33,518 nt of DNA from Sedimentisphaerales bacterium (GCA_016932095.1 JAFGDN010000052.1:1-33518), one strand, 5' to 3'; shown: positions 2,736 to 32,254, numbered from the stretch's first letter. Notes: generated by a model not told the origin, from the letters alone. Translations and numbers: made by a program.

Positions 2736-2774
2736 AAGTGTTATGTACCCGCAATGATATATAACAATAAGTTC

Positions 2775-3500
2775 CTAACGTCCGCGTCTCCCTTTTACAA
2801 GGTTTGTAAGTGCTTCATTTAACATTCCTATTGGCTTCCAATTAGGGTCGCCTTTCAGTAACACAATCGGCGTCCGAGGTATAAATCCATCCTTGGCTAT
2901 ATCTTGTGGGAATACAAACCTTCAGTCACTATATGCATGTTCGAGAATTTCTTTTTCAGTGGATACCCCGTAGTGTTCAGAAACCACGTATAATACATCT
3001 TTATCGTGCAACAATTCCAACTCTGCTCCAAAAGTTTTACCCTGATACAATGCGTTAGACACATTGCATACAACAACGTCGAAAGAATCCACGCTGTAGC
3101 GGTCATTCGTTGTCCCCGCCAATCGGATATTACTCCTGCTTCTATGGCATTTAACATTGAAATGTGGGACTTTACATGACCGCGTTCCTTTTCGCATAGA
3201 ACCCCTAACGGCACTTTTACATTCGACCCTGAGAATCATACCGGTACGTCTGTGGGTTACCTGAATATCCTGATCCTGAAGCCCTGGTTGAGCGTTGAGG
3301 TTAAGTTTTTGAACCGTCCATTCGCTCGCTGAAAGATTACGGAGAACCTCCAAATATCCTTGATACTCTGTTGCTTTTCCTCGAATCATTGGAACGACCT
3401 TTTGGTCGTTGAGTATGTCAAATATGTAGTCGATGGGAACAGCGAAATTTTCGCAGTAGGTCTTGAGTTTTTGTCCTAATTCAATTGGTTCGATGCTCAT
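2775..3500 (-). pseudogene. PD-(D/E)XK type II restriction endonuclease interrupted by in-frame TGA
   Basis: The open frame gives 192 residues ending at a TGA (2922-2924). The same frame continues for 48 sense codons to a TAG at 2775-2777, ending only 39 bases from the convergent methyltransferase stop. The continuation looks like real protein (RFVFPQDIAKDG, then PIVLLKGDPNWKPIG, with a basic C-terminus). A single TGG-to-TGA change would restore a Trp in 'YSD-W-RFVFPQ'. The intact part carries a PD-(D/E)XK-like nuclease core: Asp78 in 'LQDQDIQV' and Glu93/Lys95 in 'LRVECKS'. Context (methyltransferase plus controller) supports a restriction enzyme. Its start overlaps the stop of the controller gene by four bases, giving translational coupling. 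It may be inactive, read through, or functional without the last 49 residues; a sequencing error is also possible. The recognition site cannot be read from the sequence. Confidence 0.75.
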
Positions 3501-8601: not shown

Positions 8602-9573
8602 ATGGCGCATAAAACAAAAGAGTTCAAGTGGGAAAAAAAGCACCTGCTGGGCCTGCGAGAGCTTAGCCCCGATGAGATTAGTTACATTCTTGACACCGCC
8701 GCCGGCTTCGAGCAGATAAGCGCGCGGGCGGTCAAAAAGACGCCGCCGCTCCGAGGCAAGCTCGTGGTCAACCTCTTTTTCGAGGACAGCACCCGCACGC
8801 GAAACAGCTTCGCCCTCGCGGCCAGCCGATTAAGCGCAGACGTCGTCGAATTTACAAAAAACGACAGCTCCGTCAGCAAGGGCGAGACGCTTCTGGATAC
8901 CGCCCGCAACCTCGAGGCGATGGGTATCGATATTGTTGTAATCAGGCACGGCGCCGGCGGTGCACCCAAGCTGTTGAGCAAATATATCAACGCCTGCGTT
9001 GTCAACGCCGGCGACGGATACTGCGAACACCCGACGCAGGGTTTGCTCGACGTCTATACGATACGCAAGCTGCGGGGGTCGCTGAAGGGTCTCAAAATCG
9101 CCATAGTCGGCGATATCACACATTCAAGGGTCGCCCGCAGCGATATGTGGGCTATGACAAAGCTTGGGGCCAAGGTAACGTTTGTCGGGCCGCCGACGCT
9201 TCTTCCGCCAAACGTCGAGCAGCTTCCCGTTAAAGTAAGCTACTCGCTCGATGACGTCATCGAAAAAGTTGACGTGATAAACATGCTGCGAATCCAGTTC
9301 GAACGGATTGGCGGAAACCCCTTCCCGTCGGTTCGCGAGTATTCACATTATTTTGGTTTGACCGGCGAGCGTATGAAAAAGGCAAAGCCGGACATTCTCG
9401 TTATGCACCCCGGGCCAATCAACCGCGGGCTTGAAATCGAAAGCGAGGTTGCCGACGGGCGAAACAGCGTCATACTCCAGCAGGTATCCAACGGCATCGC
9501 CGTCCGTATGGCCGTATTATTCCTCGTCAACCAGGCCGCGGCGCAGCAGGTCAAACAAATTAAAGAAACCTGA
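8602..9573 (+). CDS. pyrB: Aspartate carbamoyltransferase, catalytic chain
   Basis: This enzyme joins carbamoyl phosphate and aspartate to N-carbamoyl-aspartate, the committed step of pyrimidine synthesis. The 323-residue protein has the carbamoyl-phosphate site 'FFEDSTRTRNSF' with S63-T-R-T-R67. 'VVIRHG' and 'CEHPTQGLLD' (His143-Pro-Thr-Gln) follow. The aspartate domain then shows 'IVGDITHSRVARSDMWAM', 'VINMLRIQFER' and 'HPGPINRGLEI'. Lengths and motifs are complete, and no regulatory pyrI gene is visible nearby. It starts 32 bases after pyrR with only a weak Shine-Dalgarno (ACAGG). Confidence 0.95.
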   Translation: MAHKTKEFKWEKKHLLGLRELSPDEISYILDTAAGFEQISARAVKKTPPLRGKLVVNLFFEDSTRTRNSFALAASRLSADVVEFTKNDSSVSKGETLLDTARNLEAMGIDIVVIRHGAGGAPKLLSKYINACVVNAGDGYCEHPTQGLLDVYTIRKLRGSLKGLKIAIVGDITHSRVARSDMWAMTKLGAKVTFVGPPTLLPPNVEQLPVKVSYSLDDVIEKVDVINMLRIQFERIGGNPFPSVREYSHYFGLTGERMKKAKPDILVMHPGPINRGLEIESEVADGRNSVILQQVSNGIAVRMAVLFLVNQAAAQQVKQIKET

Positions 9574-20411: not shown

Positions 20412-20849
20412 ATGGCTAATAAAATTATTAAAAAAAGTAAATTTTCAGAGCTTTCGGAAAAGGTCCTTTTAAAAGACGGTTCTCAGGTGACTTATAACGG
20501 CCACATAGACCTGCTGCGGTGCAGGGCGGGTTTGCTAACCGGCAAAGACCGCCTGCTGATGCAGTTGTATTTAGACAAGGCAAACACTTACAGCCAGATG
20601 GCACGACTGGCAGGCGTCAACGAGGCAAACGTCGCCAGGCGCATTCACAAAATCATTCGCCGACTTCTCGACAGCCAGTTCATTACCTGCCTGAGAAACC
20701 GCGACAAGCTCACCGACCTCCAAATCGAAATCGCAAGGGATTATTTACTCGTGGGACTATCTATGGAGAAAATCTCGCAAAAGCACAACGTAACCTATTA
20801 CTCCGTCCGGAAAACATTGAGAAAAATCCAGCGGTTAACTGCGGTGTGA
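20412..20849 (+). CDS. Sigma-70 region-4-like DNA-binding regulator
   Basis: A 145-residue protein with two successive helix-turn-helix patterns: 'LDKANTYSQMARLAGVNEANVARRIHKI' (about residues 54-81) and 'DYLLVGLSMEKISQKHNVTYYSVRKTLRKI' (about 109-138). The second looks like the region 4 of sigma factors or a phage-type transcriptional regulator. No region 2 (core-binding) is present, so it is probably not a complete sigma factor. It is the first gene of the phage-like island and follows a long leader. It may control the island's genes (inference). Confidence 0.65.
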   Translation: MANKIIKKSKFSELSEKVLLKDGSQVTYNGHIDLLRCRAGLLTGKDRLLMQLYLDKANTYSQMARLAGVNEANVARRIHKIIRRLLDSQFITCLRNRDKLTDLQIEIARDYLLVGLSMEKISQKHNVTYYSVRKTLRKIQRLTAV

Positions 20850-20961
20850 AAAACCACCGCCCTTTTGCCGAGGGATCCAGCCCCGCGCCCGTCCCCGGCG
20901 ATGTCGCCGGGATAAACCTGGGATATTAGAAACGTATAACTTTTTTGAAAGGAGCAAAAGT

Positions 20962-21198
20962 ATGTTTCAATCAGAAAAACACAGCGAACGAGCCGACGAA
21001 TACACGCCCCGAATTTACGACGGCCAAACCGCCGTCCTCGACGTGAAAAGAAAAAAGAACAGGAAGTTCTGGAAACAGAGAAACGGCAGACAATGCACTG
21101 TAATTAGCTGCCATCGAAATGCCGCGATTGTTGCCATCCCGAGCTTAAATGAGCTCGTATTATGCCAAACAAATGAATTGCGACCTGCCGTCCTGTGA
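20962..21198 (+). CDS. Small basic protein, unknown
   Basis: A 78-residue protein with an excellent GAAAGGAG site nine bases before the ATG. Not recognised. The middle is rich in Lys/Arg ('DVKRKKNRKFWKQRNGRQ'). It is followed by beta-type sequence ('CTVISCHRNAAIVAIP', 'LVLCQTNELRPAVL') that suggests a small beta-barrel, perhaps nucleic-acid binding. It is flanked by the regulator gene and the AP2-like gene, in the same direction. Confidence 0.6.
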   Translation: MFQSEKHSERADEYTPRIYDGQTAVLDVKRKKNRKFWKQRNGRQCTVISCHRNAAIVAIPSLNELVLCQTNELRPAVL

Positions 21199-21260
21199 AA
21201 GAACAACCATAAAGGCCCCAAAAAACCAGTCCAGCCACATACTTTTGAAAGGATACCAAA

Positions 21261-21650
21261 ATGGAATCGAAAACGAACAGCAGCATAAACTTCGACATCG
21301 GTTATTTTGACACTGAAGAGGAGGCCGCATTGGCATACGACTGGGCCTCCAGAATTCTTTATGGCCCAGAGGCGCAGGTGAACTTCCCCGACGTTATCGT
21401 CCCGGCCGTCGCCGCCTTTATGATTCGCCATAGCGCGGGCGCACCCCTCCGCGTGGGATTTAATAAAAGAAATGGCGGCGGCTATCGTGAGTTTAAATGC
21501 CGAATCGCCAATCCCCGGAGGCCGTTCTATCTGGCAAATCAAAATCTCATCGTCGTAAAAACCAATTTGCTCCTCGGTTATCGGTGTATTCCCATCGAAG
21601 GCATAAAAATGCTCGAAATCGACGGCAATTCCTACAAAGTTGTCTCCTAA
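21261..21650 (+). CDS. Protein with a truncated AP2/ERF-like domain
   Basis: A 129-residue protein. Residues about 10-45 ('INFDIGYFDTEEEAALAYDWASRILYGPEAQVNFPD') match the last strand and the helix of the AP2 DNA-binding domain seen in phage HNH enzymes and plant ERF factors ('lGyFdTeEEAArAYD.aa...G..a.lNFP'). The first two strands of the domain, which contact DNA, are absent or replaced. The following 80 residues are not recognised. No HNH motif is present, so it may be a degenerate homing-type or recombination protein. AAAGGA precedes the ATG, and the ABC gene follows after 14 bases. Confidence 0.6.
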   Translation: MESKTNSSINFDIGYFDTEEEAALAYDWASRILYGPEAQVNFPDVIVPAVAAFMIRHSAGAPLRVGFNKRNGGGYREFKCRIANPRRPFYLANQNLIVVKTNLLLGYRCIPIEGIKMLEIDGNSYKVVS

Positions 21651-21664
21651 AGGCGCCCGCACTT

Positions 21665-22363
21665 ATGCGGAAATTCTCATTATCAAAGCAATTCCAGACC
21701 AATCCCCCGATTACAAGCCGTGTATCGACCGTGATGCGAATGTTCGGCCTAACGCTCGACCGATTAAAAAACGCCGCGAGCATACATAAGGCCGTTCTGG
21801 AAGTGCGGGAAGGCGACATCGTTTACATCACAGGGCCTTCGGGCTCGGGAAAATCCGTCCTCCTGAGAGAGCTGCTAAACGAAATTCCCGCCGGCGAACG
21901 TATCAGTATCGACGAGATAGAACTGCCCGCAGACAGGGCCGCTGTCGATTGCATCCATTTCGGCCAGACGGGTCAGACCTGTCTGACAGGTCAGACAAAG
22001 GCCCTCTCAACCGTCGAAACCCTTCGACTGCTGAGCATTTGCGGCATAAGCGACGCCTTCTGTATGCTGATCCCGCCCGCAAACCTCAGCGAGGGTCAAA
22101 AATATCGCTTTCGACTCGCCTGCTGCCTCGCGTCGGGGAAAAAATATGTCTTCGCCGACGAATTCGCAAGCTCCCTCGACCGAATTACCGCCGCCGTCAT
22201 CGCCTACAACGTCCGAAAATTTGCAAAGCGGACGGGCGTAACGTTCGTTCTCGCATCCAGCCACGAGGACATACTCGCCGATTTGCAGCCCGACGTGCTG
22301 GTCGTCAATAATTTCGCCTCCTTCGCAGAAGTGCTTTACAAAAAATTGAGAACGAAAAACTGA
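21665..22363 (+). CDS. Soluble ABC-type ATPase (N-terminal half of a split ABC-GNAT protein)
   Basis: A 232-residue ATPase without transporter partners. It has Walker A 'GPSGSGKS' (57-64), signature 'LSEGQKYRFRLA' (141-152), Walker B 'YVFADEF' with Asp165-Glu166, a D-loop 'SSLDR', and the switch His200 in 'ASSHEDI'. The start used (ATG 21665) follows the AP2-like stop; a longer frame to 21497 overlaps that gene. Residues about 100-112 (GQTGQTCLTGQT) come from a GTCAGAC/GTCTGAC repeat that looks inserted. In my memory of this family, the ATPase is continuous with the GNAT domain encoded just downstream. Here both reading frames are in register but separated by stops. A role in DNA modification or packaging is inferred from neighbours only. 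Confidence 0.8.
   Translation: MRKFSLSKQFQTNPPITSRVSTVMRMFGLTLDRLKNAASIHKAVLEVREGDIVYITGPSGSGKSVLLRELLNEIPAGERISIDEIELPADRAAVDCIHFGQTGQTCLTGQTKALSTVETLRLLSICGISDAFCMLIPPANLSEGQKYRFRLACCLASGKKYVFADEFASSLDRITAAVIAYNVRKFAKRTGVTFVLASSHEDILADLQPDVLVVNNFASFAEVLYKKLRTKN
21972..21996. repeat. GTCAGAC/GTCTGAC palindromic triplet inside the ABC gene
   Basis: GTCAGAC (21972-21978), GTCTGAC (21981-21987) and GTCAGAC (21990-21996) alternate with two-base spacers, giving a nine-base period. They are read in frame as a Gly-Gln-Thr-rich insert. Confidence 0.75.
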
Positions 22364-22428
22364 GAATTAAGAATTTGGAAGAAGACGAGCTTGTAATTCT
22401 AAATTCACAATTCTCAATTCTAAATTTG
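22343..22428. repeat. AT-rich inverted repeat between the ABC and GNAT genes
   Basis: The left part carries AATTGAGAAC and CTGAGAATTAAGAATT; the right part carries AATTCTAAATTCACAATTCTC followed by a second AATTCTAAATT. The arms are imperfectly inverted and contain the ABC stop codon and several other in-frame stops. A related stretch (GAATTCTCAACTCTAAATTC) precedes the large terminase near 29350. Confidence 0.65.
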
Positions 22429-22429
22429 T

Positions 22430-23233
22430 ATGAATACCTGCACTATCACTCGAAATCTTGAAATCGTCGCCGGCACGAAAGCCGATTACAAATCGCTTGC
22501 CCGTTATCACTATCGCGAGCACCAGCTCGGGCCATACTGTGCGATTTACGCCCTGAAGGGTCGCTTCCGAACCTCGACGCGTTTTGAGACCGTCGGCGTA
22601 ATCGTTTACGCGACGCCGACGGCCGGTGCGCAAATGCGAGACGCCGCGACCGGCGGCGTGCTGCGGGGACTGGATAAATGCACGCGACTCAAACTCATTA
22701 ACAAAAACATTCGAACCATCCGCCGGGTCATCATCGAGCCGAGGTTCCGCTCCCTGGGCCTGGCCGCCAGGTTAGTCAGCGATACTATGCCGCTCATGAA
22801 TGTTCCGTTTATCGAGGCCCTCGCGGTGATGGGGCAGGTCAATCCATTTTTCGAGAAGGCCGGTATGACACGCCTCGACCCGTCCGTATCTCCCGATTGC
22901 GCCCGCCTCATCGCGGCCTTCGGCGCCGTCGGCGTAGATGAGCAAGATTTGATTGACCCCGATGTAGTCCAGCAAAAACTGGACAAACTTCTCACCGCAG
23001 AGCACGCCGAGAACGCAGAGAAAAGGAAAATAAAAAATAATCTCTGCGGTCTCTGCGGCCTCCGCGGTGAATATGAGTTCATCGAACACGAGATGTCGCG
23101 TTTCCTTCAATCGTTTGGCCGACGCCGACTTATGCCGCCCGGCCTCGACCGCACAAAATTCATCCTCTCCAAACTCACCGACAGGCCCGTTTACTACTTC
23201 TGGCAAAACCAAAATCTCAAATTGAGGTTTTAA
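22430..23233 (+). CDS. GNAT-fold acyltransferase-like protein (C-terminal half of a split ABC-GNAT protein)
   Basis: A 267-residue protein. 'DYKSLARYHYREHQLGPYCAIYAL' (about 19-42) is followed by a strand 'ETVGVIVYATPT' and the acyl-CoA-binding turn 'VIIEPRFRSLGLAARLV' with R107-S-L-G110-L-A112 (the Q/RxxGxG/A pattern). 'VPFIEALAVMGQVNPFFEKAGM' completes the GNAT core. The 'xxYHY' element recalls the Mom family of phage DNA-modifying acyltransferases; that link is an inference. Residues about 188-214 (TAEHAENAEKRK...LCGLCGLRGE) are encoded by a dispersed palindromic repeat and are surely foreign to the fold. The reading frame matches that of the ABC gene 66 bases upstream, and the ParB-like gene starts four bases downstream. 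Confidence 0.75.
   Translation: MNTCTITRNLEIVAGTKADYKSLARYHYREHQLGPYCAIYALKGRFRTSTRFETVGVIVYATPTAGAQMRDAATGGVLRGLDKCTRLKLINKNIRTIRRVIIEPRFRSLGLAARLVSDTMPLMNVPFIEALAVMGQVNPFFEKAGMTRLDPSVSPDCARLIAAFGAVGVDEQDLIDPDVVQQKLDKLLTAEHAENAEKRKIKNNLCGLCGLRGEYEFIEHEMSRFLQSFGRRRLMPPGLDRTKFILSKLTDRPVYYFWQNQNLKLRF
22992..23070. repeat. Palindromic CACCGCAGAG repeat inserted in the GNAT gene
   Basis: Two 30-base arms (22992-23021 and 23041-23070) are inverted with 24 of 30 positions matching, around a 19-base A-rich loop. The right arm reappears at 29606-29635 inside terL with 28 of 30 bases identical. Confidence 0.85.
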
Positions 23234-23237
23234 AATT

Positions 23238-23882
23238 ATGAATCACAAAACACAATCAATCGCTATATGTAAGCTGCTCGCTAATCCCGCCAATCCAAAC
23301 GAGATGAGCGAGGAAAAATTCCGCAAACTGGTCCGAAATATCGAGCGCACAGGGCTTTATGAGCCGCTCATCGTCAGGCCCCACCCGCAAAAAAAAGACC
23401 ACTTCCAGATTATCAACGGCCATCACCGCGTAAAAGCGCTGGCCAAGCTCGGCAAAAAAGAAGCGGATTGCCTCGTCTGGAACGTCAATGACGAACAAAC
23501 CGCCGTGCTTCTGGCGACCCTGAACCGTCTCGGAGGCAGCGATGTGCCTGCCAAAAAAATCGACCTGCTCAAATCCCTCAAAGAACGCTTCAGCTCAGCC
23601 GAACTCGCTAAAATCCTCCCGCAAACCAGAAAGCAAATCGACCAGCTCATCAATCTGAAACGCAACCTGCCCCCCATAAAACCGGATACCCGGCCGTTCG
23701 CGATTCCTCTCGTGTTTTTCGTAACGCCCGAACAAAGCAAAACCATCGAAGAGGCGTTAAGCAAAATTCCCATACCGCCCGGCTTAACAAAAGCACAACA
23801 TCGCGCCGCTGCGCTTACGACAATTGCGGAATACTTTATCAAGCCGAGCGAAAAAAACTTCCGGTTTTCAAAATTTTTGTGA
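23238..23882 (+). CDS. ParB-like protein with N-terminal ParB/sulfiredoxin fold
   Basis: A 214-residue protein. The ParB N-terminal domain is clear: 'NPNEMSEEKFRKLVRNIERTG' (about 19-39), 'LYEPLIVRPHP', and 'FQIINGHHRVKALAKLG' with the GxxR box G61-H-H-R64. In ParB proteins this box binds CTP or ATP. A helical DNA-binding region with 'AELAKILPQTRKQIDQLINL' follows, then a C-terminal domain unlike the chromosome-segregation ParB dimer domain. It lacks a ParA partner. It sits four bases after the GNAT gene, making an ABC-GNAT-ParB cassette, so it may act in phage DNA handling or targeting of modification rather than segregation. Confidence 0.82.
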   Translation: MNHKTQSIAICKLLANPANPNEMSEEKFRKLVRNIERTGLYEPLIVRPHPQKKDHFQIINGHHRVKALAKLGKKEADCLVWNVNDEQTAVLLATLNRLGGSDVPAKKIDLLKSLKERFSSAELAKILPQTRKQIDQLINLKRNLPPIKPDTRPFAIPLVFFVTPEQSKTIEEALSKIPIPPGLTKAQHRAAALTTIAEYFIKPSEKNFRFSKFL

Positions 23883-24005
23883 AATTTTACTTGACTTTTT
23901 GCAGGTTTTGGGGTAGCTGTGTCATCCAACAGGTCAGGAATTTAACAGATGGAGATATTAGGTTGGCTTTACGCACTTTTGCAACTTTTTATGGAGGGCA
24001 TAAAA

Positions 24006-27000
24006 ATGAGTTCTTGGAAACAAAACGCTTGCATTGTGGCAGCAATATCCATTTGCTGCCTTATAATCAGCGCTTCATCAGCCGACTTCGAACAGTGGTC
24101 TCAGCCGCCAATTGAGGTTATTACCTACGTAGTCCCTGAGCCGGGTGCGCTCGGCCCTTCCTTGGGGGCGGTTCGGGATGCGAATTACCCGCCGGTCTGG
24201 TTCGATGAGTGGAACCGGTCTCAGCAATGTCACGGCGATGCCGACGGAAAATATGAGACAATTGCGAAATATCGGGTTTATTTCAGTGATTTTATGCTTT
24301 GGAGTCAATCGCTGGGAAAGGTTTACGACCCCTGCAAAGGCATCGGCTATCCAAATTATGAACCAAACGCTGATTCAACGCGCGACGGGCGAATAGATTA
24401 TCTCGACCTCCAGGAGATTGGTAATTGGTGGAGAGCCAAAGACCCGCCGGCCACCCCAAATGTTCCGGGAAACTGCATCGCAAGCCATCCCTGGGCGATT
24501 ATGCTTGCTGATAACTTCAGGTGGCAAAGTAACAGACCGATTATGTCGATACAATGGTGGGGTGCGTATCGACTATGGGAGGAGCCGAATATCCCCTCTG
24601 TTGAACCCGTGGCCTGGCAGATTGGTCTTTGGGATAACAGCCCCGATTCAAATAAGCCCTATGGATACGGCTGGGAATTTGGCAGACCTGGAAAACTATT
24701 GCAAAAACTTTCCATATCCGCGCCTCGCGTAAACATTGAATCAGCAGGAAAAAGCTTAAACCGGGTTGGATGGTTGCCTCCAGAATCGCTCTTTAGCTAT
24801 ACTGTGGCTCTTGAACCAAACGAGTTACTCTGGCCGGGAGAATTTGTCAGCGATAGCAATAGCTACTGGTTGAGTGTCCTGCCGATATATTCCCCGGATG
24901 TCAATCTTACGCACGTATGGGGTTGGCAAACCCGGCCGTGGCCCTGGTCGAAGACCTCGATAATGACGCGACTTTACGATGAGCCCCAGCCGGATACCGT
25001 CATAGATGCTAACTGGACACTGCCGATTCACGATTATAGTTGCTTGGAGTTAGGAGGAGATAACAGTTGTTACGATGCGTGGGACCTTACATTTGCATTA
25101 TACACCGATGCCAATCTTTTCAAATGGCAGCAGCCGTTTACAGGTATTCGTGACTGGCCCTACTATGAGGATATTACGTCACAGGCCGACTCATCTGGTT
25201 TTGGCATTGTGGCAGCAGATGACTGGCTATGCGAGAAAAATACGCCCGTTGTCGGCATAATCTGGTGGGGGTCTTATTTGGGTCTTCGGTACAATCCGGT
25301 TGAGACGATCAACCCGCCCATTGATGAACCAAATTACTTCCTTTTATCTATATGGACAAATCAAGACGCAAATGAGCCGGGGAATCCTTATGAGTTCAGT
25401 CATCCCGAACAAATTGTTTGGCAGTTCAAGGCGTATAATTACGATGAGCTGATGGTCGGATACGACAGATTCCCCGATTCCAATTCGGACCCGTGCGAGC
25501 CGGTCTTCAGATATTCCATCGAAATTCCTGAGCCGAACCGGTTCTACCAGCGGGAAGTCAACGGGATTTATTGGCTCAGCATAGCAGCAGTGTTCGAGGG
25601 CTTTTCGCCGAACTATCCCTGGGGCTGGACAAACCATCCATACGATTTTGGCGGCGACGCTGTCTCTGGTGTACTGCCGCAACGAGCATGGACGCAGGTT
25701 GCTGTCCCGGGAGTCGATATGTCATTTGCGCTGCTGACCGAGCCGAATGAGTGCAATCCATTCACAGATTATAACTATGACTGTCGTGTGGACTGGTTCG
25801 ACCTTGATATTTTTACCAAGCATTGGTTGTGGTTTTGTGAAGAATATCAAGGCCATACTGCTGATATGGATTGCGACGGCGATGTCGAATTCACAGACCT
25901 GGCAATCTTTGCACTGGACTGGCTCACGATTGATTTGGAATCCGCGATATGCGATGATTTTGACGGTGACGGGTACAGCCCGCTCGGAAGCTATTGCTGT
26001 CAATTCCCGGAGCCGGACTGTAACGATACCAACCCGAATGTAAATGCAGGTATTAGCGAGATATGCACCAACGGCATAGACGATGACTGCGACGGCTTAA
26101 CCGACTGCAACGATACTGATTGCTACTGCCCAGATGCCGACGGCGACGGATATGGCGCAACCGCTTCGCCGTGTTGCCCGTATGCGGGTATCGACTGTAA
26201 CGATAACGACCCCAATATAAATCCCGGCGCAACGGAAATCTGCGATAACGGCAAAGACGACGATTGCGACGGGTTTACCGACTGCGCAGACAGCCAGTGT
26301 GCCTGTGCCGACGCCGATGGCGACGGCTACGGCATAGTCGCTTCACCGTGTTGTCTGTATACAGGCATCGACTGCAACGACAACGACCCCAATATTCACC
26401 CTGGCGCAACTGAGGCCTGCACCAACGGCAAAGATGATGACTGCGACACGCTGATTGACTGCAACGACAGTGATTGTTCTTGCATCGATACGGACGGCGA
26501 CGGATACGGCGTAAACGTCTCGCCGTGTTGCCAGTATGCAGGCATCGACTGCAACGATAATGACCCGAACATTAATCCAGGCGCTGCTGAAATCTGCGAC
26601 GGCAAAGACAACGACTGCGACTCCATTATAGACAACGTCGATATGGACGATGACGGCTACATAGACCAGAACTGCGGCGGTAATGACTGTAACGACAACG
26701 ACCCGAACATTAACCCAGGCGCAACCGAACTCTGCACGAACGGCAAAGACGATAACTGCGACGGGTTTACCGACTGCGCAGACAGCCAGTGTGCCTGTGC
26801 CGACGCAGACGGCGACGGATATGGCACAACCACTTCGCCGTGTTGTCCGTATGCGGGTATCGACTGCAACGACAACGACCCCAATATCAATCCCGGAGCT
26901 ACTGAGGTCTGCAACAACGGCAAAGACGATGATTGCGACCTGCTGGTTGACTGCAACGACTCAGATTGCTCCGGCGACCCGTGTTGTCCGCCAAACTGGC

Positions 27001-27269
27001 CGGAATGCTGGGGCTGGCCTTACCAGTGTCACGGAGACGCAGATAATCAGACCGAAGGACCAATGAAATTCATTGTCTATACGCTCGACTTGCAAATACT
27101 TCAGGCCTCTTTCAACCGTGCTTATCCCCACCCGGAGTATAATCCCTGCGCCGATTTTGACAGAGACGGAGACGTCGATACAGCCGATTTGGATATCCTG
27201 CAGTCCAACTGGGGGGCAACATCGCTACCCACGTGTGAGCCTGGAGGCACCTGGCCTCCGTCGCCGTGA
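24006..27269 (+). CDS. Giant secreted protein with dockerin-like and MopE-type repeats
   Basis: A protein of 1087 residues from the ATG at 24006 (GGAGG seven bases upstream); an earlier in-frame ATG at 23949 lacks a site and would bury the signal peptide ('NACIVAAISICCLIISASSA'). Two related beta domains of planctomycete type appear: one with 'FEQWSQPPIEV' and 'MLADNFRW...IQWWGAY' (to ~190), one with 'FKWQQPF' and 'VAADDWLC...IIWWGSY' (about 369-423). Dockerin-like segments lie near 75-140 (inside the first domain), 583-642 and 1006-1074, with calcium-loop patterns such as 'DFDRDGDVDTADLDIL'. Between about 672 and 995 are six copies of the MopE-like motif DCNDNDPNINPGATEICDNGKDDDCDG. It is probably calcium-binding and cell-surface; its place in a phage-like island suggests cargo. 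Confidence 0.85.
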   Translation: MSSWKQNACIVAAISICCLIISASSADFEQWSQPPIEVITYVVPEPGALGPSLGAVRDANYPPVWFDEWNRSQQCHGDADGKYETIAKYRVYFSDFMLWSQSLGKVYDPCKGIGYPNYEPNADSTRDGRIDYLDLQEIGNWWRAKDPPATPNVPGNCIASHPWAIMLADNFRWQSNRPIMSIQWWGAYRLWEEPNIPSVEPVAWQIGLWDNSPDSNKPYGYGWEFGRPGKLLQKLSISAPRVNIESAGKSLNRVGWLPPESLFSYTVALEPNELLWPGEFVSDSNSYWLSVLPIYSPDVNLTHVWGWQTRPWPWSKTSIMTRLYDEPQPDTVIDANWTLPIHDYSCLELGGDNSCYDAWDLTFALYTDANLFKWQQPFTGIRDWPYYEDITSQADSSGFGIVAADDWLCEKNTPVVGIIWWGSYLGLRYNPVETINPPIDEPNYFLLSIWTNQDANEPGNPYEFSHPEQIVWQFKAYNYDELMVGYDRFPDSNSDPCEPVFRYSIEIPEPNRFYQREVNGIYWLSIAAVFEGFSPNYPWGWTNHPYDFGGDAVSGVLPQRAWTQVAVPGVDMSFALLTEPNECNPFTDYNYDCRVDWFDLDIFTKHWLWFCEEYQGHTADMDCDGDVEFTDLAIFALDWLTIDLESAICDDFDGDGYSPLGSYCCQFPEPDCNDTNPNVNAGISEICTNGIDDDCDGLTDCNDTDCYCPDADGDGYGATASPCCPYAGIDCNDNDPNINPGATEICDNGKDDDCDGFTDCADSQCACADADGDGYGIVASPCCLYTGIDCNDNDPNIHPGATEACTNGKDDDCDTLIDCNDSDCSCIDTDGDGYGVNVSPCCQYAGIDCNDNDPNINPGAAEICDGKDNDCDSIIDNVDMDDDGYIDQNCGGNDCNDNDPNINPGATELCTNGKDDNCDGFTDCADSQCACADADGDGYGTTTSPCCPYAGIDCNDNDPNINPGATEVCNNGKDDDCDLLVDCNDSDCSGDPCCPPNWPECWGWPYQCHGDADNQTEGPMKFIVYTLDLQILQASFNRAYPHPEYNPCADFDRDGDVDTADLDILQSNWGATSLPTCEPGGTWPPSP
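26265..26806. repeat. Near-identical DNA copies within the MopE repeats
   Basis: Fifty bases at 26265-26314 recur exactly at 26757-26806, and flanking repeat units are also closely similar. The match exceeds what the protein repeat needs, suggesting recent duplication or gene conversion. Confidence 0.8.
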
Positions 27270-27378
27270 TAACTAACACGAGAAGGCATGAACAATAATA
27301 CGCCGCACCCACGGAAAATCCCTGTATTCGGTGAGTCCATCTGTGCCTTGCGCTTTTATCACTTCAGGAGGTTAAAAC

Positions 27379-27819
27379 ATGCCAGAAAGAAACACTATTA
27401 CGAAAAGACAACAGGCTGTGCTCGATGACTTGTTCGTAGAAAGATACGACGAAAATCGTGTGCTCGATAAGCACAACGTCAGCCGCCGGCTCTTCGAGAA
27501 ATGGCTTTCAAATGAAACCTTCACGGACGAGTTCGAACGTCGCCTCAATGCCGCCCGCAGGCAAACTGACCTCATACTCGCCCGTTGTGCCGGCTTCGCC
27601 GCAGTAAAACTCGTGGAGTTGACCGATTCGACAAATCCAGAAACCGCCCGAAAGGCCTGCCTCGACATCATCACCCTTTTGCGACCCGGCTCACGGCAGC
27701 CCGACTCGACACCCGACGACCCCGCCAACCATCCCGCAGAATTACCCCCTGATGTCGCCTCCCGCCTCCTGTCGGCTTTGGCATTGGGTAACCAGTCGCG
27801 AGCAACGAGTGACAAATAA
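27379..27819 (+). CDS. Terminase small subunit-like HTH protein
   Basis: A 146-residue protein with a very good site (CAGGAGG, eight bases before the ATG). Residues about 6-50 form a helix-turn-helix ('KRQQAVLDDLFVERYDENRV' then 'HNVSRRLFEKWLSNETFTDE'). A helical region with 'AARRQTDLILARCAGFAAVKLVELT' and 'ETARKACLDIITLL' follows, as in phBC6A51-type and other small terminases, which recognise viral DNA for packaging. The Pro-rich C-terminus (DSTPDDPANHPAELPPD) may bind the large subunit. The large terminase lies 1.6 kb downstream, separated by rpiB and an orphan gene. Another HTH role is possible. Confidence 0.65.
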   Translation: MPERNTITKRQQAVLDDLFVERYDENRVLDKHNVSRRLFEKWLSNETFTDEFERRLNAARRQTDLILARCAGFAAVKLVELTDSTNPETARKACLDIITLLRPGSRQPDSTPDDPANHPAELPPDVASRLLSALALGNQSRATSDK

Positions 27820-27830
27820 CCGGCAATAAA

Positions 27831-27887
27831 AAAGCCAGACACTCGCTCCTTTAGCTTACGCAATATTTTGTCGGGCGGTCTGGCTTT
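27831..27887 (+). terminator. Hairpin terminator-like stem after the small terminase gene
   Basis: AAAGCCAGAC (27831-27840) is perfectly inverted at 27878-27887 (GTCTGGCTTT), with a 37-base loop. The stem starts 11 bases after the stop codon and is flanked by an A run and Ts. Confidence 0.6.
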
Positions 27888-27933
27888 AGCGTACAAACTT
27901 GTCTGTTCTCTTGTCTGACTTTTCGTCTTCCTT

Positions 27934-27974
27934 CCCGGCGCGCCTCGCCTGGGTGTTCCGGCGGGCGCGCCGGG
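27934..27974. repeat. Perfect 11-bp GC hairpin
   Basis: CCCGGCGCGCC (27934-27944) is perfectly inverted at 27964-27974 around a 19-base loop. It is the second of three consecutive hairpins between the small terminase gene and rpiB. Confidence 0.7.
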
Positions 27975-28064
27975 TTAATCACTATCCTCCATAAAAAATA
28001 TACGCTACGTTTAACTAAATGAGAAATGACGCAGATGAAAACCACGCGGCCCCAAACGCCTGTA

Positions 28065-28124
28065 AAGAGAGACGAGAGCCCTCTTGTCTCGCCCTCGCTT
28101 TCTGTTACAGGGCTCGTCTCTCTT
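28065..28124. repeat. Long hairpin, 16-bp stem with two-base bulge
   Basis: 28065-28082 (AAGAGAGACGAG-AG-CCCT) pairs with 28109-28124 (AGGGCTCGTCTCTCTT) around a pyrimidine-rich loop. It is the third in the series; its function is unknown. Confidence 0.7.
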
Positions 28125-28232
28125 AACAATAGCAGGTCAAATCCATTCTGTTTGCTGCTGGTTTCTTTTCCATTTAAAGTATAAGACACGTTTGGCGCCG
28201 CCGTGAAGAAAACCTAAGAAAAATTTAGCCGT

Positions 28233-28260
28233 TTGATTGGAAAAGAGGATAATGTATAAT
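28233..28260 (+). promoter_or_regulatory. Promoter for rpiB
   Basis: TTGATT (28233-28238) and a perfect TATAAT (28255-28260) with a 16-base spacer, 79 bases before the rpiB start. The gene therefore has a leader of about 70 bases. Confidence 0.7.
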
Positions 28261-28288
28261 CAGCGTAAAGGTATGCATTGAATAATCG

Positions 28289-28326
28289 AAAACCCCCGGG
28301 TTCATACTGGGGGTTTTAATCCCGGG
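28289..28326 (+). promoter_or_regulatory. Mutually exclusive hairpins in the rpiB leader
   Basis: AAAACCCCC (28289-28297) pairs with GGGGGTTTT (28309-28317), a terminator-like stem. Alternatively CCCGGG at 28295-28300 pairs with CCCGGG at 28321-28326, directly next to the AAAGGA Shine-Dalgarno (28327-28332). The two stems share bases, so the leader could act as a switch. Confidence 0.4.
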
Positions 28327-28339
28327 AAAGGACAAAACA

Positions 28340-28771
28340 ATGAAAATAGCTATCGGCTCGGACCACGCGGGTTTCAATTATAAAGAGCAAATCAAAAAAT
28401 GGCTCATCGAAAAGGGCCATCAGGTCAGGGACTTCGGCGCCGATTCCGATAAGTCCTGCGATTACCCCGATTTCATCAGGCCCGTCGCAAAGGCCGTTGC
28501 CGCCGGCACATACGAACGCGGCATCGTCCTCGGCGGCTCAGGCAACGGCGAAGCAATCACCGCCAATCGCGTCAAAGGCGTCCGCTGCGCCATCGCCTGG
28601 GACCTGCGTTCCGCACGGCTCAGCCGCGCCCACAACGACGCCAACGTCCTGTCCTTGGGCGAGCGTATGATGGCAATTTCAGAGGCCCTCGAAATCGTCG
28701 AACTCTGGCTTAATACCCCCTTCGATGGCGGCCGGCACCTCGCACGCATTCAAAAAATCGACGCCGAATAA
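28340..28771 (+). CDS. rpiB: Ribose-5-phosphate isomerase B
   Basis: RpiB converts ribulose-5-phosphate to ribose-5-phosphate in the pentose phosphate pathway. The 143-residue length is typical. Motifs are complete: 'IAIGSDHAGFNYKEQIKKWL' (phosphate site), 'DYPDFIRPVA', 'RGIVLGGSGNGEAITANRVKGVRCA' (the Cys or Ser at the GGSG turn is Ser here) and 'RLSRAHNDANVLSLGERM'. Classical RpiB has a catalytic Cys in 'GTGiG'; members with GSGNG, as here, form a known variant often annotated RpiB/LacA-like. It has its own promoter and leader and is a metabolic gene between phage-like genes. It is either host DNA left between insertions or cargo. Confidence 0.9.
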   Translation: MKIAIGSDHAGFNYKEQIKKWLIEKGHQVRDFGADSDKSCDYPDFIRPVAKAVAAGTYERGIVLGGSGNGEAITANRVKGVRCAIAWDLRSARLSRAHNDANVLSLGERMMAISEALEIVELWLNTPFDGGRHLARIQKIDAE

Positions 28772-28816
28772 GCTACCCGAATATGTTTAACAATTAGGAA
28801 AGTCACTAAAAATATT

Positions 28817-29317
28817 ATGGCAAAATTAAAGGCGATAAAGAAGGATATACAAACACAAAAGTACGCGAAATTTTACAGCAAATTACAAAAGCTTCTTTAC
28901 AGATTTCCAAAAGACAAATCATTTAGCACTCAAGACCGGCAACATCTTTCATTATGTCTTGCTGAGCTTTATTTCAAGTCAAATCACTTAAATAAAGTCA
29001 TAAAAAAAATTTCTGAAACTAACCTTAAGTTGGACGAAAAGCATTGTAATTCTATCACAAGCAACCTGATTGACTTGCAGATTGATATCTATACGGAAAT
29101 GGTCGATTGGATTAAGGACCTTAAAAAACTACTCAAAACCTTGATTAATATTATAGAAAATTCAGACCCTGAAAAACGCACTTTTATCGCTGAAACAAAT
29201 GTTCGCATTTCCATGAAAAGGGCAAATAGCCTTTTGAAAAAAATAGAGTATTATTATCCTCCTAAAAAGAATAGGAATAAACGTAAACAGTTTAACAGCA
29301 ATTCAAACCGCACATGA
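28817..29317 (+). CDS. Lys-rich helical protein, unknown
   Basis: A 166-residue protein that I do not recognise. It is almost all alpha-helical in appearance, with heptad-like stretches ('DLQIDIYTEMVDWIKDLKKLLKTLINII') and a basic, Asn-rich tail ('PPKKNRNKRKQFNSNSNRT'). The N-terminal half ('YAKFYSKLQKLLYRF', 'LCLAELYFKSNHLNKVI') could be a TPR-like helical repeat. The DNA is clearly more AT-rich than the flanking rpiB and terL, pointing to separate acquisition. The Shine-Dalgarno is weak (AGGAAAG, distant). Confidence 0.6.
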   Translation: MAKLKAIKKDIQTQKYAKFYSKLQKLLYRFPKDKSFSTQDRQHLSLCLAELYFKSNHLNKVIKKISETNLKLDEKHCNSITSNLIDLQIDIYTEMVDWIKDLKKLLKTLINIIENSDPEKRTFIAETNVRISMKRANSLLKKIEYYYPPKKNRNKRKQFNSNSNRT

Positions 29318-29388
29318 GAAGGCAGGATTGGCTCAGATAATTTCAGTTTTGAATTCTCAACTCTAAATTCATCATTCACGGAGGCAAT

Positions 29389-30960
29389 ATGACCCAGCCA
29401 GAATCACTATCTTTACAGAATCAAACCGATACCTTGTCCGCAAATCACATCTATGAATCCCTTCGGCGGACAAGACCCAGCTCAAAACAGGACCTCAAAA
29501 ACTATATCAAGGTCTTCCTCAATATCGATGTCCCCGCTCAGCAAATCTGCACGGAACATTCCGCCCCTCTTGATTATCTCTGGCACGCTTTCAATTCTGA
29601 TTTTATCTCTGCGGTCTCTGCGAGCTCCGCGGTGAAATTCTTAAACGGCGACTGCGTCGTCTGGGCCAACCGGGGCGGAGGCAAAACCGACCTCGCCGCC
29701 GTCGCCACCCTCCTCGATTGCGTCTTCAAACCCGATTGCCAGGTGCGAATCCTCGCCGGCTCAGAAGACCAGGCAGGCAGAATGTATCAATACCTCACCG
29801 CCTTCCTGCGAAACGGCTTCGAAAAATTCCTCGCAGGCCCCGTCCGAAAAACCGGCTGCCGGTTCCTCAATGGCTCATCCGTGGACGTCCTCACCCAATC
29901 GCAATCAAGCGTCCGCGGCCAGCACATCCAGAAGCTCCGCTGCGACGAGGTCGAGCTTTTCGACCCCGACGTCTTCAACGCCGCAAAATTCACCACGCAA
30001 AGCACCGCTCACGTCGTCGCCGCGCTCGAATCCATCTCCACAATGCACAAACCCTACGGCCTTATGCAAAAACTGGTGTCCTCTGTCATTGCGAGTCCTG
30101 AACAGCTTCCTGTTCAGGGCGAAGCAATCTCAATCCGTCCTCCGTCATCTGTCTTCCGTCCTCCGCTCTTCAAATGGTGCCTCTGGGAAACAATCGAAAA
30201 ATGCACCGACAGAAACTGCTCACAATGTCCCCTCTGGTCCGACTGCGCAGGCAGGGCAAAGCACGCCGCCGGCTACCTTAAAATCGACGACTGCATCACC
30301 CAGATGCGTCGCTCCAGCCGAGCCGCCTGGGAAGCTGAAATGCTCTGCCTCAAACCAAACCTCGAAAACGTCGTCTTCGACCAGTTCGCTCCCGCCGTCC
30401 ACATCGCACCCGTCGATTACGACCCCAACCTGCCCTTATACCGCTCGCTCGATTTCGGCTTCACAAATCCCTTTGTCTGCCTCTGGATTCAGGTCGACAA
30501 AGCAGGCGTCGTCCGCGTTATCGACGAATACTATCGCAGCCGCGCCACAATCGACGTCCACGCCGCCGAGCTGAAATCCAGAACCCCCTATGGCGAGAGC
30601 CGCGTCATCGCAACCTTCTGCGACCCCGCCGGTGCAGGTGCTAACGACGTTACCGGCACAAGCGCAGTCCGCGAATTGCGTTCATTAGGCATAAACGTCC
30701 GCTACCGCAGAAGCGGTATCGCCGAAGGTATCGAGTCAATCCGCCGCGCCCTCCGCGACGGCTCAGGCCTGTCTCACCTCATAATCTCTCCCAAATGCCT
30801 CCGCTTAATCGAAGCCCTGACCTGCTATCACTATCCTGATACTCATACCCCCGACGAACTCCCCTTAAAGGATGGCCTGTTCGACCACCCCATCGACGCA
30901 CTCCGTTACTTCTTCATAAATTACGCCAGGCCTATAAAAAATTCACAAAGACTATATTGA
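29389..30960 (+). CDS. Phage terminase large subunit (TerL)
   Basis: A 523-residue DNA-packaging motor, start supported by CGGAGG. The ATPase half has Walker A 'ANRGGGKT' (93-100), 'VRILAGSEDQAGRMYQYL', and Walker B 'LRCDEVELF' with Asp186-Glu187. The nuclease half has 'RSLDFGFTNPFVCLW' (Asp355), 'FCDPAGAGANDV' (Asp412) and 'HPIDALRYFF' (Asp503), the acidic triad of the RNase H-like fold. All catalytic residues appear intact. A Cys-rich insert 'CTDRNCSQCPLWSDC' (C272, C277, C280, C286) could hold zinc or an Fe-S cluster. Two repeat-derived peptides are present: 'ISAVSASSAVK' (about 73-83) and 'VIASPEQLPVQGEAISIRPPSSVFRPP' (about 234-260). No portal, protease or capsid gene follows. Confidence 0.92.
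   Translation: MTQPESLSLQNQTDTLSANHIYESLRRTRPSSKQDLKNYIKVFLNIDVPAQQICTEHSAPLDYLWHAFNSDFISAVSASSAVKFLNGDCVVWANRGGGKTDLAAVATLLDCVFKPDCQVRILAGSEDQAGRMYQYLTAFLRNGFEKFLAGPVRKTGCRFLNGSSVDVLTQSQSSVRGQHIQKLRCDEVELFDPDVFNAAKFTTQSTAHVVAALESISTMHKPYGLMQKLVSSVIASPEQLPVQGEAISIRPPSSVFRPPLFKWCLWETIEKCTDRNCSQCPLWSDCAGRAKHAAGYLKIDDCITQMRRSSRAAWEAEMLCLKPNLENVVFDQFAPAVHIAPVDYDPNLPLYRSLDFGFTNPFVCLWIQVDKAGVVRVIDEYYRSRATIDVHAAELKSRTPYGESRVIATFCDPAGAGANDVTGTSAVRELRSLGINVRYRRSGIAEGIESIRRALRDGSGLSHLIISPKCLRLIEALTCYHYPDTHTPDELPLKDGLFDHPIDALRYFFINYARPIKNSQRLY
29606..29635 (+). repeat. Copy of the CTCTGCGG dispersed repeat inside terL
   Basis: These 30 bases match 23041-23070 (in the GNAT gene) at 28 positions. It is read in frame as SAVSASSAV, shortly before the Walker A loop. 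Confidence 0.85.
30086..30168. repeat. Palindromic element plus TCCGTC repeats inside terL
   Basis: TCCTGAACAG/CTGTTCAGGG arms lie inside an outer ATTGC (30088-30092)/GCAAT (30124-30128) pair. CCGTC/CTCCG repeats follow at about 30134-30168. All are read in frame and separate the ATPase part from the Cys-rich insert. Confidence 0.75.
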
Positions 30961-31066: not shown

Positions 31067-31456
31067 ATGGGCGCGGAGCACGAAAATAGAACGTTTGGAA
31101 AATTGTTAAAAAAATTGAGGATTGAGGAAGCCAAAATAGGTCTCAGAGCGTTTGCTAGTATGATTAACATGAAACCATCGAATCTTAGCAACATTGAAAC
31201 AGGGCGTATTGCCCCGCCCGCCAGCAGTGAGGCTATAAAAACAATATGTGACTCTCTTGGCCTGTCTAGTAACGATCCGCACAGAGAAAAGCTGTTCGAT
31301 TTGGCTGCAAAATCCAAAAATCGAATACCGGCTGACGTTGCAGATGCGGTTAAAAAACAGAGGGGTATTCCCGTGCTTGTAAGAACCGTAGCCAATAAGC
31401 AACTCAGCGAAAAGAAGCTTCGAGAGCTTGCCGAATATATAAAGAAGTTTTATTAA
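31067..31456 (+). CDS. XRE-family transcriptional regulator (partner of ImmA-like protease)
   Basis: A 129-residue regulator. The helix-turn-helix spans about residues 11-65: 'FGKLLKKLRIEEAKIGLRAFASMINMKPSNLSNIETGRI'. A C-terminal arm follows ('LSEKKLRELAEYIKKFY') that may dimerise or touch the partner. In XRE-ImmA/IrrE pairs the protease cleaves or releases the repressor after stress; in mobile elements this triggers excision or replication. The partner gene starts ten bases downstream. A perfect palindrome over its own -10 box suggests autorepression. Confidence 0.85.
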   Translation: MGAEHENRTFGKLLKKLRIEEAKIGLRAFASMINMKPSNLSNIETGRIAPPASSEAIKTICDSLGLSSNDPHREKLFDLAAKSKNRIPADVADAVKKQRGIPVLVRTVANKQLSEKKLRELAEYIKKFY

Positions 31457-31466
31457 GGAATGGTAA

Positions 31467-32114
31467 ATGGATCCGTCGCATGGATGCAGATATTCCAAAC
31501 GTGAAATTGAATTAATAGCTTTGGATGTTCTCAAAAAAGAATACCCTAACAAACTTTCAAGACCAATCGACATAGATCGCATCGTTTACAATCATGGCGG
31601 AGTGGACGATATACGACCAATTCCTCTGCTTGAAGACAAATTTCAGGTGTCCGCAATATTGTATGTAAAAGAAAATGGAAAAGCTGATATACTCGTCGAT
31701 GAAGATACATTGGATTTCCAGCATACTCGCGCCAGCTTTTCCATCGCTCATGAGTTTGGCCATATTGTTCTTCACAAGGAAGTATGGAGCCGTTGCAAAA
31801 CCATAGAGGATTCAATTGCCCTTCATCGACGTATAAATCGCAGCTACAAATTCATAGAGGGGACGGCTAATTGGTTTGCTGGCGCCATATTAGTGCCATT
31901 CCCGATCTTGGGAAAAGACGTTCGGGAAATTTACGCCGGTTTGGTAAAGATATATGGATTCGATGCGGACCTGATTTGCCATAAAATGTATAGCGACTTG
32001 GCTAAAGGATATGGCGTATCGCCGGAAGCAATGCGGATACGGCTAAGTGTCCTCGATATCCAGAAAAAGATTGAGTCCGCGCTTCATTACAAATCACCTT
32101 ACATTGGACCGTAA
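31467..32114 (+). CDS. ImmA/IrrE-family metallopeptidase
   Basis: A 215-residue zinc protease. The active site is 'IAHEFGHIVLHKEV' with H95-E96-F-G-H99. The third ligand is expected to be Glu131 in 'FIEGTANWFAGAILVP'. An N-terminal part ('PIDIDRIVYNHGGVDDIRPIP') and a helical C-terminus ('KGYGVSPEAMRIRLSVLD') are typical of the family (DUF955). It probably cleaves the XRE repressor encoded just upstream. Together they could be the switch of a mobile element or a toxin-antitoxin-like pair. Directly after it comes the remnant of a second terminase 3' end. Confidence 0.88.
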   Translation: MDPSHGCRYSKREIELIALDVLKKEYPNKLSRPIDIDRIVYNHGGVDDIRPIPLLEDKFQVSAILYVKENGKADILVDEDTLDFQHTRASFSIAHEFGHIVLHKEVWSRCKTIEDSIALHRRINRSYKFIEGTANWFAGAILVPFPILGKDVREIYAGLVKIYGFDADLICHKMYSDLAKGYGVSPEAMRIRLSVLDIQKKIESALHYKSPYIGP

Positions 32115-32128
32115 AGCTGTTTGGCTTT

Positions 32129-32254
32129 ATGATCTATTCTTATAGTGATGAGCTGCCCTTAAAAGATGGCCTATGCGACCACCCCATCGACGCCTTACGT
32201 TACTTCTTCATTAATTACTCCGTCAAAACTTCGACCATCCGGAAATATTATTAA
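32129..32254 (+). pseudogene. Remnant of a second TerL gene (3' end)
   Basis: From 32147 the frame reads 'DELPLKDGLCDHPIDALRYF' and ends in 'YFFINYSVKTSTIRKYY', matching the last residues of the intact TerL (30853-30960). Over 72 bases 62 are identical, and almost all differences are synonymous. The piece therefore comes from a related, once-functional terminase rather than a fresh copy. An ATG at 32129 allows a 41-codon frame, but no ribosome binding site is seen. Confidence 0.75.

Follow-up and report, generated by a model that had tools for sequence, protein, structure and literature searches.

The operon and its phage counterparts

The window, as we call the whole 33,518-nucleotide stretch of DNA analyzed here, comes from a planctomycete, probably of the order Sedimentisphaerales in the class Phycisphaerae. 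It contains an operon on the plus strand with the full order HTH-ABC-GNAT-ParB-TerS-(RpiB)-TerL (20412-30960), with the following genes and features:

20412..20849, plus strand: HTH/sigma-70 region-4-like DNA-binding protein, which opens the conserved operon (TIGR02937 sigma70-ECF, 2.4e-8; UPF0122, 7e-6)
21665..22363, plus strand: soluble ABC ATPase, 232 aa (phrog_293, 2.4e-30; Pfam ABC_tran, 3.9e-12)
22430..23233, plus strand: GNAT acyltransferase, 267 aa (phrog_886, 5.9e-12; Pfam match weak, 0.1)
22979..23077, plus strand: copy of a dispersed repeat, in frame within the GNAT gene (about residues 184 to 214; from alignment)
23238..23882, plus strand: ParB-like protein, 214 aa (ParB_N PF02195, 2.3e-10; phrog_498/723, about 5e-16)
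23949-27269, strand not stated: large secreted-looking protein, between the ParB-like and TerS genes
27379..27819, plus strand: TerS-like protein, terminase small subunit (phrog_2538, 0.0034, a weak match)
28340..28771, plus strand: RpiB-like housekeeping gene, between TerS and TerL
29389..30960, plus strand: TerL, terminase large subunit (phrog_2, 5.3e-20; Terminase_6C, 8.8e-6)

The name RpiB is one that we presume for the gene at 28340..28771, which was recognized from its translation. Elsewhere in the window, XRE and ImmA/IrrE-like genes lie 3' of TerL, and a restriction-modification pair is found at 1530-3500, 18 kb off and outside the operon.

A sequence-only reading of this DNA had singled out the ABC, GNAT, and ParB-like genes as a cassette that may modify DNA. 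The three genes are real: they are open reading frames on the plus strand with family matches and signs of purifying selection. Their association is beyond chance, with gene order kept in more than 60 loci and dN/dS values of 0.05 to 0.27 among genus mates. The four-base spacing that had been ascribed to them applies to the gap between the GNAT and ParB-like genes; the gap between the ABC and GNAT genes is 66 bases. The trio itself stands, but the operon is larger, and its HTH, TerS-like, and TerL genes had been overlooked. The HTH gene lies immediately 5' of the ABC gene in most loci of the order and in a genome of another family (G098), the TerS-like gene keeps its place between ParB and TerL in most loci of the order, and RpiB adjoins one of the two terminase genes even in families that are distant. 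In alignments the N60-G61-x-x-R64 motif of the ParB-like protein is invariant or nearly so, as are the intact ATPase (K99-T100, D186-E187) and nuclease (D355, D412, D503) residues of TerL. The Walker A, LSEGQ signature, and Walker B motifs of the ABC protein are also intact, with motif residues invariant or nearly so.

The AF2 model of the ABC protein (pLDDT 89.8) has a transporter-type NBD fold. Its best match is the heme exporter HrtA (Z 20.1), and FtsE, MacB, LolD, and the soluble PhnK match it as well. A soluble ATPase of the SMC/ABC type had been proposed; soluble and ABC are both borne out, but the model is a transporter-type ATPase domain, and an SMC-like ATPase is disfavored because no SMC, Rad50, or UvrA chain is among the 50 matches listed for it. 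An ABC transporter was rejected despite the type of the ATPase domain because no membrane-domain gene is a conserved neighbor. Likewise, a ParABS partition system was rejected because, although the ParB_N domain is present, ParA is absent among the conserved neighbors. The earlier statement that the trio has neither a transporter partner nor a ParA thus agrees with the conserved neighborhood, in which neither a permease nor a ParA gene occurs.

A tblastn search of 50,697 phage records with the GNAT and ABC proteins revealed homologues of these two in several phages, among them the SSU5-type phage-plasmids, Pseudomonas phage nickie, Rhizobium phage RHph_X66, and Stenotrophomonas phage BUCTxx99. 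The gene order in four phage regions is ParB-ParB-ABC-(small)-GNAT-(small)-TerS-TerL-portal...capsid (in SSU5 it spans the record ends). The trio lies immediately 5' of packaging genes in these phages and is therefore a phage module adjoining packaging genes. The cassette of the window fits this phrog_293/phrog_886 ABC-GNAT-ParB module in its family matches, its ParB-like partner, and its position upstream of terminase. SSU5-type phage-plasmids and nickie carry homologous ABC (phrog_293), GNAT (phrog_886), and ParB-like genes 5' of TerS-TerL-portal-capsid, but they are replicating phages with two ParB-like genes, in the order ParB-ParB-ABC-GNAT rather than the ABC-GNAT-ParB found here, and identities are 24 to 39%. 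That ABC and GNAT form a unit, as had been suggested, is supported by their fusion into a single polypeptide in further families of Phycisphaerae and, it seems, in Gordonia phage Jace, in which a 364-aa ABC protein adjoins a ParB-like gene. The same pairing, fused in some Phycisphaerae, is seen in the 'MK0520' ABC-acetyltransferase annotation of phages and in the ABC-coupled GNATs of jumbo phages described in PMC7824862; no measured activity came to light for either.

Portal and capsid genes on another contig

The host genome (G000) also carries a capsid cluster, on a different contig (C81, locus L175; strands not stated) from the packaging locus:

48213-49763: portal (PF05133, 3.4e-17; phrog_64, 1.5e-24)
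49773-50327: scaffold (PF06810, 8.7e-7)
50384-51538: SU10-type major capsid protein (PF17236, 6.8e-84)
past the capsid gene to about 60881: about ten conserved small and mid-sized genes, many without known function

A terminase without a capsid had been considered from sporadic HK97 matches, and this idea was dropped because a conserved neighbor in several loci is an SU10-type capsid (PF17236, 1e-90). An SPP1-type portal match (PF05133) lies 1 to 3 kb upstream of the capsid gene in nearly all cases, and the portal-scaffold-capsid cluster recurs in sampled loci of six families (f1, f2, f3, f4, f5, and f7). No lysis gene was recognized with security, only a weak spanin-like 85-aa protein.

The order was sampled through 61 relatives, mostly metagenome assemblies, with 33 good genomes (completeness of 90% or more and contamination no higher than 5%). 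TerL was found in 54 of the 61 relatives, at 49 to 80% identity, and in 32 of the 33 good genomes; the corresponding counts were 49 and 30 for GNAT, 48 and 26 for the SU10-type capsid, and 42 and 24 for the SPP1-type portal. The capsid was single copy in each genome and absent from all 14 control genomes, and the genes of the element are usually single copy per genome. As a gauge of sporadic prophages, an HK97 portal was found in 3 and an HK97 capsid in 8 of the 33 good genomes. Within 20-kb neighborhoods the order HTH-ABC-GNAT-ParB-TerS-(RpiB)-TerL is seen in families f1, f4, and f5; in most f2 and f7 genomes TerL is 15 to 45 kb from GNAT.

Among 248 genomes of the class, 123 had strong TerL matches, 108 had the capsid, and 160 had GNAT profile matches. 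TerL and capsid occurred together in 100 genomes, TerL alone in 23, capsid alone in 8, and neither in 117 (Fisher p 3e-36, a value that ignores shared ancestry). The 23 genomes with TerL and no detected capsid may reflect loss, assembly gaps, or divergence. In other families of the class GNAT lies 5' of TerL and is at times fused to ABC (421 aa in G098). Full-length TerL orthologues were confined to the class in the phylum sample; seven genomes outside it had weak TerL matches, which in six cases covered just the C-terminal nuclease half.

It is conceivable that these genes specify a particle domesticated for some other use than DNA transfer, such as PBSX-like killing, regulated lysis, or a DNA-degradation device. 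PBSX packages host DNA without injecting it, according to PMC12946183, and many genes past the capsid have no known function. However, no contractile-tail or tailocin gene families were recognized in the capsid cluster, and few parts of the element are conserved as well as the portal and capsid. Such a use is considered quite unlikely.

Inheritance of the element and comparison with gene transfer agents

On trees of TerL, capsid, and GNAT, built as quick searches (with one long-branch warning, for GNAT), the family label had to change 7, 6, and 4 times, respectively. The minima are 6, 5, and 4, and the means for shuffled labels are 14.4, 12.9, and 15.2. The gene at 8602-9573 of the window, recognized from its translation, is presumably the host aspartate carbamoyltransferase (ATCase). 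Identity to the window for TerL and for ATCase correlated at 0.90 (42 genomes), and for GNAT and ATCase at 0.86 (38 genomes). Pairwise identities among TerL, capsid, GNAT, portal, and ABC correlated at 0.84 to 0.92 (Spearman; 0 of 2,000 permutations).

Among genus mates, with only unsaturated dS considered, dN/dS was 0.05 to 0.27 for the cassette genes and 0.09 to 0.27 for the capsid cluster; single values were 0.05 to 0.12 for TerL, 0.10 for the capsid, 0.09 for the portal, and 0.11 to 0.26 for GNAT. The capsid gene lies within 25 kb of the packaging locus in 15 of 20 order genomes, a sample in which short distances are favored because most of the genomes were picked for having both loci on one contig. 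Closed genomes are the unbiased part of this sample: the loci are close in G048 and G019, intermediate in G058, and far apart in G039, G044, and G004, with distances of 0.16 to 1.1 Mb in G039, G044, G058, and G004. The loci in several closed genomes would probably be too far apart to fit together in one particle, if its head capacity is an ordinary one.

These genes, which are clearly phage derived, could be imagined to belong to ordinary prophages, left by a single family of phages that often infects Phycisphaerae, with the window holding a decayed copy. The XRE and ImmA/IrrE-like genes 3' of TerL would be in keeping with this, as would contigs from a viral collection (L217 and L218) whose capsids are 62 to 67% identical and which may be true viral relatives. 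A further contig in that collection (L219), with a capsid 80% identical and the whole cluster, probably represents bacterial DNA miscalled as viral, as do others of its type, and a search of viral contigs with GNAT alone gave no match. However, prophages would not be expected to show the observed congruence with host families and with host ATCase, the usually single copy with genes spread over distant loci, the RpiB gene at the same embedded place in distant families, and purifying selection on all genes. This explanation is highly improbable.

These results suggest that the cassette is probably the packaging locus of a particle system that was domesticated from a tailed phage. The system would most likely be a gene transfer agent (GTA), inherited vertically in Phycisphaerae. 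GTAs are defined by, among other features, caudoviricete ancestry, endogenization, often in several loci, and mostly vertical inheritance, and further by the element not being packaged whole, by the packaging of mostly random host DNA, and by delivery to other cells (PMC9662315). As judged from their sequences, the TerL, portal, capsid, and scaffold genes appear to encode caudoviricete-derived particle proteins. The element is endogenized in several loci, as separate contigs here and the separations in closed genomes indicate, and the near-minimal changes of family label and the ATCase correlations are those of vertical inheritance and codiversification with the host.

RcGTA, BaGTA, and BhGTA are likewise caudovirus derived, endogenized over several loci, and vertically inherited, and the Brachyspira GTA (BhGTA) resembles the Phycisphaerae element in having a single-copy TerL outside the capsid cluster (PMC9662315). 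The element differs from all three in host phylum, in its spread through a whole class, and in a packaging locus with ABC, GNAT, and ParB. It also has a PF17236 SU10-type capsid and an SPP1-type portal, in contrast to the HK97-type capsid of the alphaproteobacterial RcGTA and BaGTA (PMC9662315). Of recent analogues, FpGTA of Faecalibacterium comes closest. FpGTA has one operon with the TerS, TerL, portal, scaffold, and capsid genes and a second, distant operon, about 125 kb away in one strain; it is probably short tailed and is nearly ubiquitous in the genus (PMC12946183). FpGTA differs in belonging to Bacillota and in its genus-level spread, and the text consulted makes no mention of an ABC/GNAT/ParB module. 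Its particles are known from microscopy and proteomics (PMC12946183); the Phycisphaerae element is described here from its genes.

The scarcity of GTAs outside Alphaproteobacteria is stressed in PMC12946183. A literature search, with most subscription journals outside its scope, found no report of a GTA-like element in Planctomycetes or Phycisphaerae. GTAs are known in few lineages, and a class-wide planctomycete system that combines an SU10-type head with accessory packaging enzymes of its own would be an addition to them. If the GTA interpretation is true, programmed DNA exchange by domesticated phages would have originated early in a further deep lineage and been retained by selection, and the little-studied Phycisphaerae would have their own route for passing DNA among cells.

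GNAT structure and the possible role of the ABC-GNAT-ParB module

The AF2 model of the product of 22430..23233 (pLDDT 92.8) leaves the predicted GNAT fold certain. The acyl-CoA motif, R107-x-x-G110-x-A112, is present and is common to GNATs in general. H27, Y28, R70, R99, R107, and E129 were invariant in a first alignment, and H27-Y28 was nearly invariant in a wider one. The HY motif, which the sequence-only reading took to be Mom-like, was invariant in 32 homologues, including those of phages. The best PDB matches by Foldseek are NAT10, Naa50, and AtaT (about 1e-4). Phage Mu Mom has a GNAT fold like that of the model, as had been predicted, and comparison by VIA-align with the S124A variant (8bv8_A) gave Z 12.2 and rmsd 3.7 over 146 residues. 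However, ordinary GNATs match equally well (glyphosate acetyltransferase, 12.9; NAA60, 12.7; RimI, 12.2), and Mom is less than 1 Z from many of them (N-terminal and small-molecule acetyltransferases, Z 12 to 12.9). No Mom family match to the GNAT was found in Pfam or NCBIfam. Because Mom ties with ordinary GNATs, the fold neither proves nor disproves Mom-like chemistry, which is possible for the modeled protein.

One explanation for the cassette is that it is a Mom-like DNA-base acylation module that marks self DNA for restriction avoidance or genome guarding, and that its terminase neighborhood is a by-product of phage origin. Beyond the Mom fold match and the invariant HY motif, DNA-base acylation has been predicted in print for the ABC-coupled GNATs of phages, including those of jumbo phages (PMC7824862), and the best match of the ParB-like protein, phrog_498, is a phage methyltransferase-linked family. 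Families f9 and f19 also have a fused ABC::GNAT protein but neither TerL nor capsid. Four loci examined in them have no common neighbors, except for one gene in two closely related f9 genomes. For this reason above all, the ABC-GNAT pair should not be tied to packaging alone; it can serve without a particle. Yet Mom is tied with ordinary GNATs, PADLOC found no matching defense system for the trio (only weak superfamily matches), and the order with TerS and TerL is conserved. In addition, near-universal, single-copy, vertical inheritance is unlike that of mobile defense systems. The base-acylation module is accordingly an unlikely account of the cassette. The earlier suggestion of base modification does agree with membership in a phage-derived family with predicted DNA-base acylation, but that prediction is already present in PMC7824862, and the system is in this respect not undescribed. 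Genome guarding fits poorly because the cassette is terminase linked and the genome carries a matching capsid and portal.

If the cassette is instead the packaging locus of a GTA, TerS and TerL would cut chromosomal DNA and pump it into the SU10-type head by way of the portal, and a subset of cells would release the particles. ABC, GNAT, and ParB, which stay beside terminase in phages and in this element alike, probably make either the DNA or the motor ready. With less assurance than for the TerS/TerL step, it may be proposed that they prepare the DNA or the terminase for packaging, or license one of the two. In this proposal the ParB-like clamp would load on DNA, the ATP-gated ABC dimer would position GNAT, and GNAT would acylate either a base of the DNA or one of the packaging proteins. 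The complete scheme, in which an ATP-gated ABC-GNAT loaded by a ParB clamp acylates DNA bases or terminase and so chooses DNA for a class-wide planctomycete GTA particle, is tentative and rather doubtful. If true, it would be a modification-licensed packaging motor, which is not known in other gene transfer agents. The function of the phage ABC-GNAT proteins is a predicted one, whereas the Phycisphaerae pair is tied to a terminase and capsid that are probably domesticated. The element offers a tractable cellular setting for asking what role the widespread ABC-GNAT-ParB phage module plays.

The dispersed repeat within the GNAT gene of the window is missing in most relatives, and further copies of it occur elsewhere in the host and in related genomes.

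Stand-alone ABC::GNAT fusions

Stand-alone proteins of 471 to 510 amino acids in which the ABC and GNAT parts are fused were found at loci L204-L207, which belong to families f9 and f19. The fusion was conserved inside these families (85% in f9 and about 48% for f9 versus f19), and the genes neighbouring it at L204-L207 were almost entirely unshared. Both terminase and capsid were undetected in f9 and f19.

Repeats and gene fragments

The GNAT gene carries an in-frame insertion of a dispersed repeat (window 22979-23077, about residues 184-214), further copies of which were found on contig C43 of the same genome (G000) and in the genus mate G002. A related 32-base piece lies within TerL (window 29605-29636). 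Fragments of the TerL C-terminus were found downstream of TerL (window 32144-32230, 79% identical) and on another contig (G000:C75:2469-2594, 62% identical). These fragments point to partial duplication.

Other genes in the window

Further features were located at the following positions:

1530-2735 and 2922-3500: two convergent genes that make up a type II restriction-modification pair, one matching MTase_II (PADLOC, 6.1e-77) and the other REase_II (PADLOC, 4.6e-21)
20962-21650, between HTH and ABC: two small ORFs
31067-32114, directly 3' of TerL: XRE-type regulator, then an ImmA/IrrE-like peptidase

One of the small ORFs has an AP2-like stretch (PF00847, 0.024) and matches phrog_99 HNH endonuclease (1.9e-4). 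In the neighbourhood comparison, both were absent from the conserved operon of relatives. The XRE and ImmA/IrrE-like pair, which includes a PADLOC match to capP (2.9e-14), is also close to the cassette at a relative's locus (L047), on the opposite strand.

Capsid relatives and interrupted capsid genes

The capsid proteins encoded on two IMG/VR viral contigs (L217 and L218) share 62-67% identity with their bacterial counterpart. Apart from the capsid, the gene content of these contigs differs from that of the bacterial element. The two contigs are candidates for the nearest living virus relatives.

In three members of the class (G061, G210, and G246), the capsid gene matches are interrupted by 7-12 kb of other DNA, which might represent an insertion, an intron-like element, or a rearrangement.
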